Of a stretch of DNA of 64,000 nucleotides, positions 11,087 to 20,723 are shown piece by piece. A model generated the notes under the pieces. That model worked only from the letters and a program-made list of their open reading frames with translations, was not told where the DNA came from and did not search any database. The stretch covers positions 36,220-100,219 of the IMG/VR virus record IMGVR_UViG_3300020190_000023. One strand, 5' to 3'. A program made the position numbers and the translations under genes. Every line of letters starts with the position of its first letter. Positions within the stretch are counted from its first letter, which is position 1. This stretch comes from a virus.

Positions 11087-13129
11087 ATGATAGAATCTAA
11101 GGATGGTAGTAACCAAAACAAAGGTAAAGGTAACGAGAATTCCCCGACACCTGTTTTGGACAATTTTAGTAGAGATTTAATAAAGTTAGCGGAAGAAGGT
11201 AAATTAGACCCTGTAATTGGTAGAGAACGTGAGATAACAAGAATTGCACAAATTCTTTCAAGAAGAAAAAAGAATAACCCAATCATTATTGGCGAACCAG
11301 GTTGTGGTAAAACTGCAATTGCCGAAGGATTAGCTATTAAGATATTCAATGGGGAATGTCCAAGAAACTTAACTGATAAAAGAATTGTATCATTAGATAT
11401 GACCTCAATTGTTGCAGGTACAAAATACCGAGGTCAGTTTGAGGAAAGAATGAAAGTAATAATTGATGAACTTCAAAACAATTCAAATATTATTGTATTC
11501 ATAGATGAAATTCATACAATAGTTGGTGCTGGTAATTCTTCAGGTTCCTTGGATGCGTCAAATATATTTAAACCCGCATTAGCGAGAGGTGAAATACAAT
11601 GTATTGGTGCCACAACACTTGATGAATATCGAAAAAATTTCGAGAAGGACGGAGCATTAGAAAGGAGATTTCAAAAAGTAATTGTTGATTCTGCAACAAA
11701 ACAAGAAACTTTAGAGATTTTAAAACATGCAAAAGACAAGTACGAGACATACCATAAAGTCTCATATACTGATGAAATACTTAACTTATGTGTTGATTTG
11801 GCTGAACGGTATATCACAGATAGGGAATTTCCAGATAAAGCGTTTGATATTATAGATGAGGTTGGCGCAAGAAGTCAAGTTGATATAAAAATGCCTGAAA
11901 TTATTGAAAAATTAAAATTACAAGCTCAGGATATTAAATTAGAAAAAATTGAAGTTGTAAAAAAACAAAACTACGAAGAGGCTGCAAATTTAAGAGATAA
12001 AGAAAGACGAATTTTAGATAAATTAGACTCCGAAAAGAAAAAATTTGAATCTGAATTACAAAACCAAAAACGAGAAGTTAGTCTCGAATTAGTTTATGAA
12101 GTAGTTTCAAACATGACTAAAATTCCGATTTCAAAATTAAATTCTGATGAGACTCAATCATTGACTAAATTAGAAGAGAGTTTAGGTAATAAAGTTATTG
12201 GTCAATCTGAAGCGGTTTCTAAAATTGCAAAATCAATCAGAAGAAATAGATTAGGTATTAAAGACCCTAATAAACCGATAGGTTCTTTTATTTTCTTAGG
12301 GTCCACAGGTGTTGGTAAAACATATTTGGCAAAACAATTAGCAAAAGAAATATTTGGTAGTGAAGAAAATTTAATTCGAGTTGACATGTCGGAGTTTCAA
12401 GAGAAACATACGATTTCAAGATTAATCGGGGCACCTCCAGGATATGTAGGTTATGATGAAGGTGGACAACTAACTGAACAAGTTAAAAATAAACCGTACT
12501 CTGTTATTTTATTTGATGAGATTGAAAAGGCGAATAAAGATATTTTTTCATCACTATTACAAGTTTTAGATGATGGTCATATTACTGATGGTCTTGGTAG
12601 AAAGATTAATTTTAAAAATTGTGTCATCATTATGACATCTAATTTGGGAGTTAAAAAATTACAGGATTTTGGTTCTGGTGTCGGATTTAAAAGTAATAAC
12701 AATACATATATTGAGGAGGAATATAAACGAGACTTGTTGAAGAAGGAATTACAGAAGTTTTTTGCACCTGAATTCTTAAACAGGATTGATGAAATAGTTA
12801 TCTTTAATTCTCTTAAAAAGGATGAAGTTAAATCGATAGTTAAATTGGAACTTGATAAATTATTTGAAAGGTTGGTTAATCTGAAATATCAGATTACTTA
12901 TGATGATACTATTTTAGATTTAATCTCTGAAGTTGGGTTTGATGAAACTTACGGGGCAAGACCTATTAAAAGAGCAATACAAGATAAGATTGAGGACTTT
13001 ATTTCCGAAGAAGTATTAAAAGGTAATATAAATGAACAAACAAAATATATTCTATACGTAGAAGAAAAAGAAATCAAAATAAAGACAGTACCTGTTAAAA
13101 AGGGTAGAAAGAAAAAAGGGGATGAATAA
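11087..13129 (+). CDS. clpC: ClpC-like AAA+ unfoldase lacking the N-terminal Clp repeats
   Basis: An ATP-driven protein unfoldase of 680 residues with two AAA+ modules: Walker A GEPGCGKT (about 68-75) and GSTGVGKT (about 404-411), Walker B FIDEIH and LFDEIEKA, and sensor/arginine segments such as GALERRFQKV. Between them a short UVR-like helix (NYEEAANLRDKERRILDKL) marks the ClpC rather than ClpB type. A VGF tripeptide precedes the FFAPEFLNRIDEI segment, where ClpA/ClpC carry their ClpP-docking loop. The N-terminal double Clp_N domain is absent; the protein begins about 30 residues before the first AAA+ domain. No clpP is present here, so it may dock with host ClpP and change its substrate choice (inference). 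The gene stands alone on the plus strand. Confidence 0.93.
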   Translation: MIESKDGSNQNKGKGNENSPTPVLDNFSRDLIKLAEEGKLDPVIGREREITRIAQILSRRKKNNPIIIGEPGCGKTAIAEGLAIKIFNGECPRNLTDKRIVSLDMTSIVAGTKYRGQFEERMKVIIDELQNNSNIIVFIDEIHTIVGAGNSSGSLDASNIFKPALARGEIQCIGATTLDEYRKNFEKDGALERRFQKVIVDSATKQETLEILKHAKDKYETYHKVSYTDEILNLCVDLAERYITDREFPDKAFDIIDEVGARSQVDIKMPEIIEKLKLQAQDIKLEKIEVVKKQNYEEAANLRDKERRILDKLDSEKKKFESELQNQKREVSLELVYEVVSNMTKIPISKLNSDETQSLTKLEESLGNKVIGQSEAVSKIAKSIRRNRLGIKDPNKPIGSFIFLGSTGVGKTYLAKQLAKEIFGSEENLIRVDMSEFQEKHTISRLIGAPPGYVGYDEGGQLTEQVKNKPYSVILFDEIEKANKDIFSSLLQVLDDGHITDGLGRKINFKNCVIIMTSNLGVKKLQDFGSGVGFKSNNNTYIEEEYKRDLLKKELQKFFAPEFLNRIDEIVIFNSLKKDEVKSIVKLELDKLFERLVNLKYQITYDDTILDLISEVGFDETYGARPIKRAIQDKIEDFISEEVLKGNINEQTKYILYVEEKEIKIKTVPVKKGRKKKGDE

Positions 13130-15444: not shown

Positions 15445-15842
15445 GGGGGTAACCTTGGAAATTGACTGTCATAGTTAGTTACTCGGGGCACGTCAAGGAT
15501 GAATCTAACCTTGTTAAAATGGTTCAAAATCGATAAACGGCAACGTTATCAACAAACTTTCTGCAGTAGGACTTGTTCGTACTGAGGAAGTGGCGGTAGC
15601 TTAATCAGATTAAGCGAAACCTTCGGGTCGGTGGACATATAACCCAGGAACAGAAGTCTTTACAAAGGTGTGGTTTCTACCCGAAAAGGAACAAGTGGAG
15701 GATTAGTTCTCAGTAAACCGAACCACTTTAAAAATAAGGGAATTGTGAAATTTCGGAACATTAGCTCAAATGTTGACCTAAGCGTGTAGTCCTTAGTAGG
15801 TAATGTGAGCAGGACGCGGTTCGACTCCGCATACCTCCACCA
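15445..15842 (+). ncRNA. ssrA: tmRNA (transfer-messenger RNA)
   Basis: A 398-nt one-piece tmRNA. The 5' end GGGGGTA pairs with TACCTCC at 15832-15838 to form a 7-bp acceptor stem, followed by encoded ACCA. A T-arm (GCGG-TTCGACT-CCGC) lies just before it. The tag reading frame, by comparison with Bacteroidetes tmRNAs that resume after TAAAC at a Gly codon, is GGC at 15539 to TAA at 15602-15604: GNVINKLSAVGLV then RTEEVAVA. That is 21 residues, much longer than the usual 8-10, and ends VAVA rather than ALAA. The function would be rescue of stalled ribosomes, with a tag that may direct or avoid host proteases. Own promoter and terminator. Confidence 0.92.
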
Positions 15843-15881: not shown

Positions 15882-18095
15882 TTATCTAAAAGTTGTTAAA
15901 TGTCCAAACATTTTTTTTCTTCCGTCATTTTCGGGTATACCAAATTCTAACTTCCATAAGTAGACACCGTCTTGACAGTAGTTACCATTAAAAGTACCGT
16001 CCCACCCAACTAAAGGGTTTTCACTAACCCATATTAATTCTCCCCATCTATTATAGATTTCCATTCTAAAATCATATGGGTCAAGTCCTGATGTAAATAC
16101 AGGTTTCCATATATTGTTATGTTCATCTCCATCAGGTGTGAATGAGTTTGGTATATATATCAACTCTTCAGGGCATTCGTCAATAATAACTGTAGTTTGT
16201 TCTGGGTTAGAAATACATCCGTTTGTTGTTGTGGTAACTGAAATTATATAAGTTCCTTCACTACTAAAAGTTTGATTGTATGCTTGGGTATTATAAATAC
16301 TATCAATAAATGACCATTGATTAATTCCTTGAGGATTTGATGTCAATTCAAAATTGATGTTAACCGAATCTCCCATACAAACTTCAAAAAATGGGTTTGA
16401 CGGTGTTAAGGTTTCAATTATCGGTTGTGGGTAAACAATAATTGTCTCGGTTGTTGTAAACAAACATCCACTTTGTGTGTAAGTATACGTTATAAGATTA
16501 TTACCAACCGCATTTATGGGAAAAAAATCATTATTTATAACACCATTTCCTGTATAATAACCACCAATAGGTGATGATTCTAAAGTAACAAATTCGTCAT
16601 AAGAACAGAATGGACCGACAGGATTTATAAAAGGTGTAAGATTAAAAATAGTTATATCGATTAGTTCTGTTTGAGACTGACATCCGTTTCCGTCAATACC
16701 GTATACAGTTATCATGTTATTGTAAAAACCTGATTGGGTACCATTAACGTCAACAGTAATCTGATTTGTTCCTTGTCCGTTATTAATAATTCCGTTGGTT
16801 GTTGACCAAACATAATTTAAACCCGTAATTAAATTTGTTGTGTTATAAAAATCACTAATAGAATTAATACATATAGTATCCTCACCAACAATAGGGTTTA
16901 TAATTAGTGGTGGAGGGTCCATTAATGTAACGTTACTTGTTATTGTACACCCTAAAGCATCTGTTAAAGTAAAAACATAATTCCCTGAACATAGGTTGTT
17001 TGGATTGAATCCAGATTGGGGTCCATTCCATGAAATTGTTTGAGCTCCATTACCTCCATTCGGAGTTATTATAAGACTACCATCACAATACCCGTTACAA
17101 GTTGGTTCATTAGATATTATGGTTGGTAAAGGTAAATTAGGTGGACCAGGAACAACTAATACAGTATCAGGACCTAAACCAAGTGAACCATTACATGTTA
17201 CCCATCCTGCATTACATGTCGGATATACAAAATGACAGGTGTAACTCGCTCCCGCGGCAGGTGGGTTAACCGTTATTGATGGACCCGTCCCTATTGGTAT
17301 AGGATTACCAACCTGATACCAAGTTAATGTCGGAGTCACTACAGGTCCTGAAGGTGTCCATCTCCAAGAATCATTTTGTGCAACCCAAGCGGTTGAGTTT
17401 CTTCCTGGTACTGTTATCCCAATTGTACCTGCTAAATTATGGATACCCTCAACAGAAGTTCCATTTTGCCATTGTAGACATGCAGGTTTACTTTGAATGT
17501 GATTTTCTATGATATTAGTTGTTTCATAAATTATAATGTGAAACGTACCAAGATTAGAAGTACATGAATACATTGGCATATTAACCCAACTAACAATTAA
17601 TTTACGACAAGGTGCAACTCCTTGAACTTGGTATTTTATTTGACCACCAATTCCAGGGTGCCAATCTTGCCAAGGACCCATTATACAATTTTTTGGTACT
17701 AAGCCATTAGTTGTTGGTATTGATTGAGAAGTAAATGTTGTTGGTTGGTTTGGCGAAAAAGATATCCATCCGTTAGACCCTATCCAAAATTGAGTATACG
17801 TCGTACCAAAAAAACAAAAATTAAAACCTATATTAAACGGACCCTGTTGGGAATCATCGGTCATTGTTAAATTAGTACCGTTATTTACTTGAGCAACGTA
17901 AGGTATATTTGTTACATTATAATTTGTTGTTTGATTTGGATTAATACCCCCAACTCCACATTGGGTTAAGTCCGCGGTAAGTGTTGTTGAGTTGGACCCG
18001 CAAGGTAATAATTGGTCAGGACCTAAATATGGACAGTATTGTCCGAAACCGACAAAACTAATTAGGTAGGTTAAAAGTGCTAAAATATTTCTCAT
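15882..18095 (-). CDS. Type IX-secreted adhesin-like protein (SprB repeat, type B CTD)
   Basis: A 737-residue secreted protein. Residues 1-18 are a signal peptide (MRNILALLTYLISFVGFG). The N-terminal region is a Cys-containing lectin/adhesin-like beta domain (WIGSNGWISFSP). Residues about 320-400 resemble a SprB repeat (CDGSLIITPNGGNG, GNYVFTLTDALGC). The last about 85 residues are a gliding-motility-associated type B sorting domain: IPNSFTPDGDEHNNIW, EIYNRWGELIW, WDGTFNG, DGVYLWKLEF. In Bacteroidetes such proteins pass the outer membrane through the type IX secretion system and remain at the surface. In a phage it may alter the host surface or be part of the particle. TATTTAT lies 4 nt before the ATG (class B). 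Confidence 0.88.
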   Translation of the reverse strand: MRNILALLTYLISFVGFGQYCPYLGPDQLLPCGSNSTTLTADLTQCGVGGINPNQTTNYNVTNIPYVAQVNNGTNLTMTDDSQQGPFNIGFNFCFFGTTYTQFWIGSNGWISFSPNQPTTFTSQSIPTTNGLVPKNCIMGPWQDWHPGIGGQIKYQVQGVAPCRKLIVSWVNMPMYSCTSNLGTFHIIIYETTNIIENHIQSKPACLQWQNGTSVEGIHNLAGTIGITVPGRNSTAWVAQNDSWRWTPSGPVVTPTLTWYQVGNPIPIGTGPSITVNPPAAGASYTCHFVYPTCNAGWVTCNGSLGLGPDTVLVVPGPPNLPLPTIISNEPTCNGYCDGSLIITPNGGNGAQTISWNGPQSGFNPNNLCSGNYVFTLTDALGCTITSNVTLMDPPPLIINPIVGEDTICINSISDFYNTTNLITGLNYVWSTTNGIINNGQGTNQITVDVNGTQSGFYNNMITVYGIDGNGCQSQTELIDITIFNLTPFINPVGPFCSYDEFVTLESSPIGGYYTGNGVINNDFFPINAVGNNLITYTYTQSGCLFTTTETIIVYPQPIIETLTPSNPFFEVCMGDSVNINFELTSNPQGINQWSFIDSIYNTQAYNQTFSSEGTYIISVTTTTNGCISNPEQTTVIIDECPEELIYIPNSFTPDGDEHNNIWKPVFTSGLDPYDFRMEIYNRWGELIWVSENPLVGWDGTFNGNYCQDGVYLWKLEFGIPENDGRKKMFGHLTTFR

Positions 18096-18602: not shown

Positions 18603-18664
18603 TAGCGGGTGAGGGACTCGAACCCCCGTATTCGGCTTATGAGACCGAGCTGGAAACCACCACG
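18603..18664 (-). tRNA. tRNA-Met(CAU), 5' part missing or displaced
   Basis: Clear 3' two-thirds of a tRNA: anticodon arm TCGGT-CTCATAA-GCCGA (anticodon CAT), T-arm GGGGG-TTCGAGT-CCCTC, then ACCCGCT and discriminator A. The 3' half of a D-arm (GTGGTTTCCAGC) is present, but the expected 5' acceptor strand AGCGGGT is not found upstream. Instead the GIY-YIG endonuclease gene runs into it, and the stop codon of that gene overlaps the anticodon. It is either an interrupted or a decayed tRNA gene. Confidence 0.6.
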
Positions 18665-19173
18665 ATATTTTTTGTATAATACTGTTTCATTATTTCAGAA
18701 TGTTTTTTTCTCGTTTCTTCATTTTGAAATCTTAATTTCGCCTTTTCGGAAAGTTTTAGTTTTGTACTTTCACTAAGAACTCTTTTTCTATTTCCTTCAG
18801 AAATTTTATTTCTTGTTTCTTCAGAAAAAATTCTACCTTTACTAATATCTGATAATTTTTGTTTAGTTTCATTAGTATGTTTTTTTCCTTTGAAATTAGA
18901 ACCTCCTTCACCCCCCAAGGATTTATTATATGTATCTTTCCTTTTAATGAATTCTTCGGTAACTATCTCTCGTTCTTTTAAATCCATTTCATTCTCGGTA
19001 TTGAATATGAACAAAATTTCTTTAGTGAAAAATTTTTTACCGTATTTCTTTATTGCTTTCTCTAATAAAACACCAGAACCAAAATAACTATCATTAATAT
19101 TTTCTGTTTGGTGCTTACCTATGTAAATTTTGTTATTTAACGTATTTGTAATTTTGTAAATTGTATATTTCAT
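18637..19173 (-). CDS. GIY-YIG homing endonuclease with NUMOD3 repeats
   Basis: A 178-residue endonuclease. The GIY-YIG core is at residues 3-18 (YTIYKITNTL, KIYIGKHQT). The C-terminal part has NUMOD3-like DNA-binding repeats (GKKHTNETKQKLSDISKG, FSEETRNKISEGNRKR, in series). Its last codons (IVVVSSSVS) are encoded by the tRNA-Met sequence and its stop lies in the anticodon loop, which points to insertion in a tRNA gene. ATATTTAT lies just before the ATG. Homing endonucleases of this kind spread between related phages by cutting the uninserted site. Confidence 0.85.
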   Translation of the reverse strand: MKYTIYKITNTLNNKIYIGKHQTENINDSYFGSGVLLEKAIKKYGKKFFTKEILFIFNTENEMDLKEREIVTEEFIKRKDTYNKSLGGEGGSNFKGKKHTNETKQKLSDISKGRIFSEETRNKISEGNRKRVLSESTKLKLSEKAKLRFQNEETRKKHSEIMKQYYTKNIVVVSSSVS

Positions 19174-19235: not shown

Positions 19236-19275
19236 AAAAAAAGGCTGAGATTACACCTGTTAATTGAGAACCTTT
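19236..19275 (-). terminator. Terminator-like 3' stem of the large structured RNA
   Basis: On the minus strand AAAGGTT pairs with AGCCTTT (one G-U pair) around a 26-nt interval and is followed by seven T. It would end the RNA started at about 20150. Confidence 0.5.
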
Positions 19276-20150
19276 AGAGTCATTATTGTTTCTACTCTTA
19301 TCCACTTCCTTTTAAGAAGTATTCCTCAGTGACGGTCTTTTAGGTTTACCACTCCTTGAGATTTTGGTTACTCTCTTATTACTCAACTCTCTTCGAGGAT
19401 GCCTCCCCAATAAATCCTTGCGGGACTAGAGGTCTTTGGTAAAACTACACTCAGACTTGGGGTCCTTGTGTGCAATGAACGGCTCATTACTATGTAGTCA
19501 CCTTTCACCAAAACCTGATGGACACTTTTCCTTTATGTTCTTAAATGTTACTTCAATAATAGTAAAGTTTTTGTGTCGTGGATGAATCGAAGTAGTGGTC
19601 CACCTTAAGCTCCATTTCCTTTTGAGAAACAGAATACTATACTACTCCGTGAGATATCCCTACCTCCATATTTTAAGATTACTTCGTACCAAGACCTTGG
19701 TGGGTCTGTGGTAAGGATAGTAGCGACACCACTCGTTCTCTATCTTACCTTCAGGTATTACCCCTTCGGTTTTAAGTCACCTCTCATATTGGAACCCGCA
19801 ATCATGTATTTGGAAATACATTTCTCACTTGATTCCTATGGGTTATTCTTATTGGTGTTCCCACCTCAAACAGACAATCCACATTGCCTATTCAGTTTTC
19901 CATTTCCCTACGAAGTTATCCTCGGTACTACAGGCTCACTGATATCCCACTTGTATACTCGAGTTCGGTTTCCCAAACCGCAGAACCACTAACACTGATG
20001 GTTCCACTTTATCCCCCTTTCGAGGTTTATTTTATGGACTATATACGGCCCAATATCTTTATCAGTTTCAGTTTCAAATCCTAAGATTTTAATCTACTCC
20101 TGAATGGATATCTAAAATTTCAAAGAACGTTATCGGACGTTTCCGATTTG
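19236..20150 (-). ncRNA. Large structured RNA (about 915 nt), GOLLD/ROOL-like candidate
   Basis: No coding frame fits this stretch. Read on the minus strand it is purine-rich and packed with local stems: CGGTTT-GGG-AAACCG (about 19966-19980), ATGTATT-TCCA-AATACAT (19804-19821), GGCAAT-GTGG-ATTGTC, GGAACCA...TGGTTCT, AATGA-GCCGT-TCATT nested in ACTACA...TGTAGT, AGACC-CACCAA-GGTCT, ACTTC...GAAGT. Two stems need G-U pairs that exist only on the minus strand, fixing the orientation. A host-type promoter (20156-20186) sits just before it and a poly-T stem ends it. Size, phage origin and closeness to a tRNA fit the GOLLD and ROOL classes of giant phage RNAs, but I cannot confirm the family. Confidence 0.75.
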
Positions 20151-20160
20151 TTTTACAAAG
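20121..20160 (-). repeat. Promoter-hairpin repeat, copy near the large RNA
   Basis: About 40 nt (TTACAAAGTTAA side to GAACGTTATC side on plus) nearly identical to 20511-20553, and related to 20247-20272. The hairpin arms differ between copies but stay paired, so the fold is conserved. Confidence 0.7.
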
Positions 20161-20186
20161 TTAAGAACAATTTTTTAAACTTCCAA
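20156..20186 (-). promoter_or_regulatory. Host-type promoter of the large structured RNA
   Basis: Minus strand TTG (20184-20186), 20-nt spacer, TAACTTTG (20156-20163). A 6-bp hairpin (ATCGGA-AACG-TCCGAT, 20132-20147) and AACGTTCTTT follow immediately, as at the promoter at 20547. Confidence 0.8.
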
Positions 20187-20263
20187 ATTTTTCTCTACTT
20201 TTTTTTTCAGATTTAGGAGACCTTTGTTTTACGGTAATTCCAACCTTTATCTGAAAGGTTTTA

Positions 20264-20293
20264 CAAAGTTAAACAATTTTTTTTAATTGTCAA
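20264..20293 (-). promoter_or_regulatory. Host-type promoter, second copy
   Basis: Minus strand TTG (20291-20293), 19-nt spacer, TAACTTTG (20264-20271), then TAAAAC and a hairpin ACCTTT-CAGAT-AAAGGT. It would yield a short leader or small RNA, or read on into the large RNA. Confidence 0.75.
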
Positions 20294-20476: not shown

Positions 20477-20510
20477 TTTTCGAGTTTTTAAAAGTTAATA
20501 CTAAATTATT

Positions 20511-20553
20511 TAAAAGAACGTTATCAGTTATTTCTGATTTGTTTTACAAAGTT
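20511..20553 (-). repeat. Promoter-hairpin repeat, copy before the 54-aa gene
   Basis: Shares GAACGTTATC, GATTTGTTTTACAAAGTTAA (plus-strand reading) with the copy at 20121-20160; the hairpin stem changed from ATCGGA/TCCGAT to ATCAG/CTGAT. Confidence 0.7.
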
Positions 20554-20576
20554 AAACATTTTTTTCTTTCTGACAA
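20547..20576 (-). promoter_or_regulatory. Host-type promoter, first copy
   Basis: Minus strand TTG (20574-20576), 19-nt spacer, TAACTTTG (20547-20554), then a hairpin ATCAG-AAATAA-CTGAT (20523-20538) and AACGTTCTTT. It drives the 54-residue gene and possibly everything downstream. Confidence 0.8.
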
Positions 20577-20723
20577 GTACTTTAAGAAAAAAAAAATAAA
20601 AAAGTTCCGAAACAGTCATTTCGGAAATATTGGTTTCTATATTAATTTAATAAAAATTAATTAATTGGTTATTGATTTATAAACATTAAACCTATATTTA
20701 TTGTATCTAAAACAATAAATAAT

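Follow-up and report, generated by a model that had tools for sequence, protein, structure and literature searches.

A GOLLD-family RNA of a T4-like Bacteroidota phage with a predicted rRNA-type boxA leader

Gene content and family assignment of the locus

The DNA analyzed here, hereafter called the window, is a 64-kb stretch of a virus record of 100,219 bases that carries a terminase and a portal, which is the context of a phage genome. Its minus strand holds a 915-base stretch that, by its sequence match, is a structured phage RNA and a further member of the known GOLLD family (Table 1). A cmscan search against Rfam 15, the check proposed in an earlier note on this DNA, matched GOLLD (RF02032) over the entire model with an E-value of 3.8e-89 and about twice the gathering score of 150 bits. 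No match to ROOL at the gathering score was found within the window, and a ROOL identity was rejected. The earlier note, made from the letters alone, had described a large structured minus-strand RNA with its own Bacteroidota promoter and a resemblance to the GOLLD/ROOL RNAs. The promoter, the stems and the terminal U-run bear out this description, and the resemblance holds for GOLLD.

Table 1. Features of the GOLLD locus, all on the minus strand (window coordinates)
Feature	Position	Strand	Basis
GOLLD RNA gene, ~915 nt	19236..20150	-	Rfam GOLLD match, homologous 5' domain, covariation
3' domain, conserved (Rfam RF02032, model 1-416)	19242..19649	-	314.4 bits
5' domain, outside the Rfam model	19650..20060	-	nhmmer of upstream regions, blastn
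Linker, variable, A/U-rich	19534..19587	-	Rfam alignment
P21 hairpin loop CGCAA, self-complementary GC core, putative kissing loop between half-shells	19418..19422	-	
P21 hairpin loop GGCA, self-complementary GC core, second putative kissing loop	19400..19403	-	
Final stem and U-run, probable transcript end	19236..19258	-	sequence reading, Rfam alignment
Promoter -33 element TTTG	20184..20187	-	spacing conserved in relatives
Promoter -7 element TAACTTTG	20156..20163	-	consensus match
Leader hairpin ATCGGA-AACG-TCCGAT, boxB-like position between promoter and boxA	20132..20147	-	
boxA GTTCTTTGA, predicted rRNA-type antitermination signal	20120..20128	-	single copy, conservation, 16S leaders, scan
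SegE-like GIY-YIG homing endonuclease gene	18637..19173	-	

The RNA is built of two parts over more than 800 nt: the 3' domain is conserved, and the 5' domain, set apart from it, is less so. This agrees with the env-38 study, which describes GOLLD as a universally conserved 3' region and a less conserved 5' region (PMC12286853). The Rfam model takes in the 3' region alone. Of 88 GOLLDs gathered, about 60 show the window-type 5' domain in a profile search, and the remaining ones have different 5' halves. The domain is of the same type in LR745206.1 and LR756502.1 (blastn) and is weakly recognizable in Acinetobacter phage AM24 (profile search). Two metagenomic phages of 635-642 kb align to both halves of the RNA at ~69%. 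A 24-mer from the 5' half matched 38 viral contig stretches, and GOLLD scores above the cut-off in 39 of the 41 records examined, which are these 38 and three phage records. The relatives make up a large Bacteroidota-phage GOLLD set with a defined 5' domain that is absent from the Rfam model.

When both strands are read, the longest frames within the gene are 94 aa (plus strand, 19708-19992) and 66 aa (plus strand). In relatives whose DNA is 70-80% identical, stop codons or frame breaks interrupt both; the 94-aa frame is broken in relatives such as L175, L163, L194 and L200 and still open in the closest one, L166. Because of these interruptions, the 94-aa frame is, as judged from the alignments, a by-product of RNA conservation, and a coding stretch was rejected, in line with the earlier view that no credible frame is present. 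In the consensus pairs of 33 non-redundant relatives, G-U cells outnumber A-C cells by 1097 to 87. This places the RNA on the minus strand, to which the earlier note had assigned it from G-U pairs. Transcription is predicted to begin at about 20150 and to stop in the U-run (19242-19236) of the final stem, where a poly-T stem had been noticed before.

The host phylum is probably Bacteroidota, to judge from the promoter type, the boxA, a CHU_C protein and the kinship of TerL, whose nearest relatives among named isolates are Flavobacterium phages. The CHU_C protein (737 aa; 15882-18095, minus strand) combines PKD with a CHU_C type IX secretion sorting domain, as in surface or secreted proteins of Bacteroidota hosts. 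GOLLD was found in 0 of 148 sampled Bacteroidota genomes, in a search in which no positive control gave a signal; this sample provides no host link by prophage.

The closeness to a tRNA that had been pointed out earlier stands in part. Nearest to GOLLD lies a partial tRNA, the 3' part of a tRNA-Met(CAT) at 18603-18661 (minus strand), 580 nt downstream; the intact tRNAs lie 9-13 kb away. In this tRNA-Met, the 3' end of the homing endonuclease gene takes the place of the 5' end. The same arrangement occurs in four identical contigs (L179-L182), and a split yet functional tRNA-Met around the endonuclease was rejected, as no 5' half was found in the window.

Several other genes of the window were noted. 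A phage tmRNA lies at 15445-15842 on the plus strand (Rfam RF00023, 81.7 bits); it has an encoded CCA end, was missed by ARAGORN and may specify a tag ending in ...NVINKLSAVGLVRTEEVAVA. No similar phage record was found for it at the DNA level. One relative, L383, has a tmRNA ~2.4 kb from its own GOLLD. An adjacent pair of RNA ligases, one T4 Rnl1-like and one RNA_ligase/PHA02142 (22818-24971, minus strand), possibly serves tRNA repair, and a Clp-type ATPase (phrog_4871) is encoded at 11087-13129 on the plus strand.

Conserved fold and predicted cage contacts

Folding of the 33 non-redundant relatives with RNAalifold yielded 224 consensus pairs, with 94% of the cells canonical and 153 pairs changed on both sides. 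Covariation was assessed with our own R-scape-like test, whose null preserves the tree and the substitutions; with 25 null alignments, the E-values are approximate. Thirty pairs were obtained at E <= 0.1, every one at least 91% canonical, and 25 of them fall within the predicted fold. The covariation in homologues whose lack would have refuted the earlier note is thus present, at the level of the fold as a whole. In a set of 57 3' domains from both groups, 24 pairs pass the test, among them pairs of two helices (19602-19599/19519-19522 and 19501-19498/19329-19332) that either cross the Rfam structure or are not part of it. Covarying long-range or crossing pairs occur at 19498/19332, 19601/19520, 19530/19460 and 20044/19955. 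In the sequence of the window itself, almost every helix is intact.

GOLLD RNAs self-assemble into hollow cages, and the structure of these cages was solved recently. In the cryo-EM study, the env-38 GOLLD forms a hollow 14-mer cage in which two self-kissing loops connect the half-shells and the linker is located inside the cavity (PMC12286853). Both of the loops that join the half-cages appear to be kept in the window RNA, as judged by comparing its sequence with the description of env-38. The two P21 loops would correspond to bridges B8/B9 (L21a/L21b). Most P21 loops across the relatives have self-complementary cores (GC, UCGA or GAUC). In L194 and L199 the loop CGCAA has become CAUAA, and this change from GC to AU agrees with a loop that pairs with its counterpart in a second copy. 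The positions of the CGCAA and GGCA loops are exchanged in L186, L187 and L189. By homology, the window sequence would form a cage with the linker in its cavity; the 14-mer state is known for env-38 alone, to which the window RNA is likened by description.

Instead of building a cage, the RNA might stay linear and have a regulatory or antisense role, or it might be a carrier transcript for tRNAs. GOLLD genes and tRNA arrays have leaders in common, and in one relative (L183) a tRNA-Met takes the place of the leader hairpin between promoter and boxA, both of which speak for this reading. However, no tRNA was found inside the window RNA, and the loops that link half-cages seem kept. We regard a linear or carrier RNA as unlikely.

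Promoter, leader hairpin and boxA

The Bacteroidota promoter consensus is TTTG-N19-21-TAnnTTTG. The RNA gene is preceded by TTTG-N20-TAACTTTG (20187-20156). With 18-22 nt allowed between the elements, the two strands of the window contain 12 copies of the general consensus, against ~4 expected from simulated sequence (~2 per strand), so that the match by itself is modest evidence. Most relatives keep the promoter at the same place with 20-nt spacing, often as tandem copies, and this conservation of position and spacing makes the evidence strong. The host promoter proposed in the earlier note is thereby upheld. Two more copies of promoter and small hairpin are situated upstream of GOLLD (20507-20579 and 20225-20272, minus strand), and downstream of the outer one come a degenerate boxA (GTTCTTTTAA) and a 54-aa frame. 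Tandem promoter units of ~91 nt were seen in L164, L175 and L159.

The leader hairpin between promoter and boxA is conserved as a structure. A stem of at least 5 bp is present in 91% of 47 distinct leaders, compared with 5.8% of shuffles. The stems change in a compensatory way (TCGGA/TCCGA, TCAGGA/TCCTGA, AATCTCA/TGAGATT), and the loops are AACG, AAAG or AATG. The order of hairpin and boxA recalls the boxB-boxA order of rrn leaders, and the AANG-loop hairpin is weakly enriched in Bacteroidota 16S leaders.

The motif GTTCTTTGA occurs once in the window on both strands. Since 0.8 copies are expected from base composition, its location and not its count is the evidence. The upstream sequence is long enough in 32 non-redundant relatives, which share ancestry and are not independent events; 25 have the exact motif, five have GTTCTTTAA and two have neither. 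Outside the RNA core, a motif-blind alignment of the 5' ends of non-redundant relatives returned a single conserved run, GTTCTTT. The flanks of boxA are not conserved, and between 28 and 140 nt separate it from the first core motif. This variation favors a transcription signal over a structural part of the RNA.

The same motif is found in rRNA leaders. The sample consisted of 107 Bacteroidota 16S genes, each with 320 nt or more of preceding sequence. The exact GTTCTTTGA is present in 47 of these leaders, at a distance of 71-202 nt ahead of the probe, the background rate being 0.017 per 320 nt; GTTC[T/A]TTGA is present in 67 of the 107. The bases that follow are also alike in GOLLD and 16S leaders, A-rich and then ATT.

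A scan of IMG/VR for the promoter end followed by boxA gave at least 119 stretches, a count inflated by related contigs, versus 3 when the motif was permuted, with its composition and the promoter string left unchanged. Among the matches listed there are 100 distinct sites, of which 80 precede GOLLD, a share biased upward because the promoter string was taken from GOLLD leaders. Seven precede tRNA arrays, five are too short and eight are other, part of which are also tRNA regions. In L186-L190, boxA is additionally present ahead of a tRNA cluster. Two further contigs, L368 (from ~9350 downward, minus strand) and L440 (from 4645, plus strand), have a stretch of some hundreds of nucleotides, apparently conserved, between a promoter-boxA unit and tRNAs. 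This stretch matches neither GOLLD nor another Rfam family and is possibly a further structured RNA.

Among GOLLDs, the boxA leader is, on present sequences, lineage-specific, because it is absent from the GOLLDs with other 5' halves, except for GTTCTTTAA in L202 and L216, and from those of Acinetobacter phage AM24 and LR756502. A boxA as a general feature of GOLLD was rejected for its absence from the other 5'-domain type. No mention of a hairpin-boxA leader with GOLLD was found in the searchable literature outside subscription journals; the leader is likely new.

It could be argued that GTTCTTTGA belongs to the conserved structure of GOLLD RNA and makes a tertiary or intermolecular contact there, since it lies within the transcript, near the RNA body, and hardly varies. 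The variable spacing and unconserved flanks speak against such an element, as does the promoter-motif arrangement ahead of tRNA arrays that lack GOLLD. The motif is moreover identical to the boxA of 16S leaders, and GOLLDs with the other 5' domain do without it. We consider a structural element quite improbable and read the motif as boxA.

Proposed transcription and assembly, and comparison with known systems

In nascent rRNA, boxA binds NusB-NusE(S10), which together with other Nus factors blocks Rho-dependent termination and helps 30S biogenesis (PMC4807359, PMC5725501). A published boxA survey left noncoding RNAs out of consideration (PMC5725501). By analogy, we infer that a host Nus/S10 antitermination complex drives transcription of the window GOLLD RNA. 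The host RNA polymerase would initiate near 20150 at the housekeeping Bacteroidota promoter, and the first transcribed bases would contain a small hairpin and an exposed boxA identical to that of the host rRNA leader. NusB-S10 would bind this boxA as in rrn operons and, with NusA/NusG, would shield transcription of the 900-nt untranslated RNA from Rho and may aid its folding. In this way the host Nus complex could let the polymerase complete an RNA that no ribosome covers. The finished RNA would consist of the 5' and 3' domains joined by a floppy linker. Together with 13 other copies it would build a hollow cage, by homology to env-38 GOLLD, in which the 5' domains form the caps, the 3' domains form the rings and the P21 loops unite the half-shells.

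The reading as a whole, a GOLLD RNA of a T4-like tailed Bacteroidota phage that is made from a host promoter, recruits Nus factors through a hairpin-boxA leader and forms a cage, has in our estimate a probability of about 0.82. The RNA may be produced late in infection. A further idea, against which the odds lean somewhat, is that Bacteroidota phages make GOLLD as a mock rRNA operon: the hairpin-boxA would load the host Nus/S10 complex for antitermination and RNA folding, the cage would be built co-transcriptionally by the ribosome-building machinery, and tRNA arrays would use the same leader. As to purpose, the RNA might serve late in infection as a container or sponge for components of host or phage translation, such as tRNAs or ribosomal particles, which is a guess, and a doubtful one.

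The locus might instead be a decaying relic, in which the GOLLD sequence is kept and folding or production has been lost. The broken tRNA-Met beside the homing endonuclease just downstream does point to local rearrangement, but the helices are nearly all intact and none of promoter, hairpin, boxA, loops and U-run has been lost, which makes a relic very improbable. The new class of giant RNA, apart from GOLLD and ROOL, that the earlier note had entertained, and for which a 5' half outside every Rfam model might plead, is refuted by the full-length match to the GOLLD 3' domain at 314 bits, twice the cut-off, and a less conserved 5' region had already been described for GOLLD (PMC12286853).

A boxA before GOLLD would tie cage RNAs to the transcription and assembly machinery of host rRNA. 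The conserved boxA would also offer a direct, mutable handle on how GOLLD cages form in cells and what for.

The closest known system is env-38 GOLLD, whose 14-mer nanocage is described in PMC12286853. It shares with the window RNA the full-length 3' domain, a separate 5' domain, a variable linker, P21 loops with self-complementary cores and a tRNA-Met sequence nearby. It is 833 nt long, compared with ~915 nt here. The window RNA differs in its Bacteroidota host and in its boxA leader, which the accessible text does not mention for env-38. The GOLLD of a Lactobacillus brevis prophage is likewise phage-borne with a conserved 3' domain, but it belongs to a prophage and to another host phylum (PMC7567579, PMC6582537). 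It is reported to accumulate in lytic growth and to be dispensable for phage production (PMC7567579).

ROOL is similarly a large phage RNA that forms a hollow cage, often near tRNAs, although its sequence and secondary structure are unrelated to GOLLD (PMC12286853). Vibrio phage ICP1 makes a very abundant, large noncoding transcript of ~800 nt that its authors liken to GOLLD/ROOL, from a genome without tRNAs (PMC7567579). The boxA of bacterial rRNA operons is the same 9-mer, also promoter-proximal and before a long untranslated structured RNA (PMC5725501, PMC4807359). In the window it stands ahead of a phage cage RNA instead of rRNA, and a small AANG-loop hairpin precedes it.
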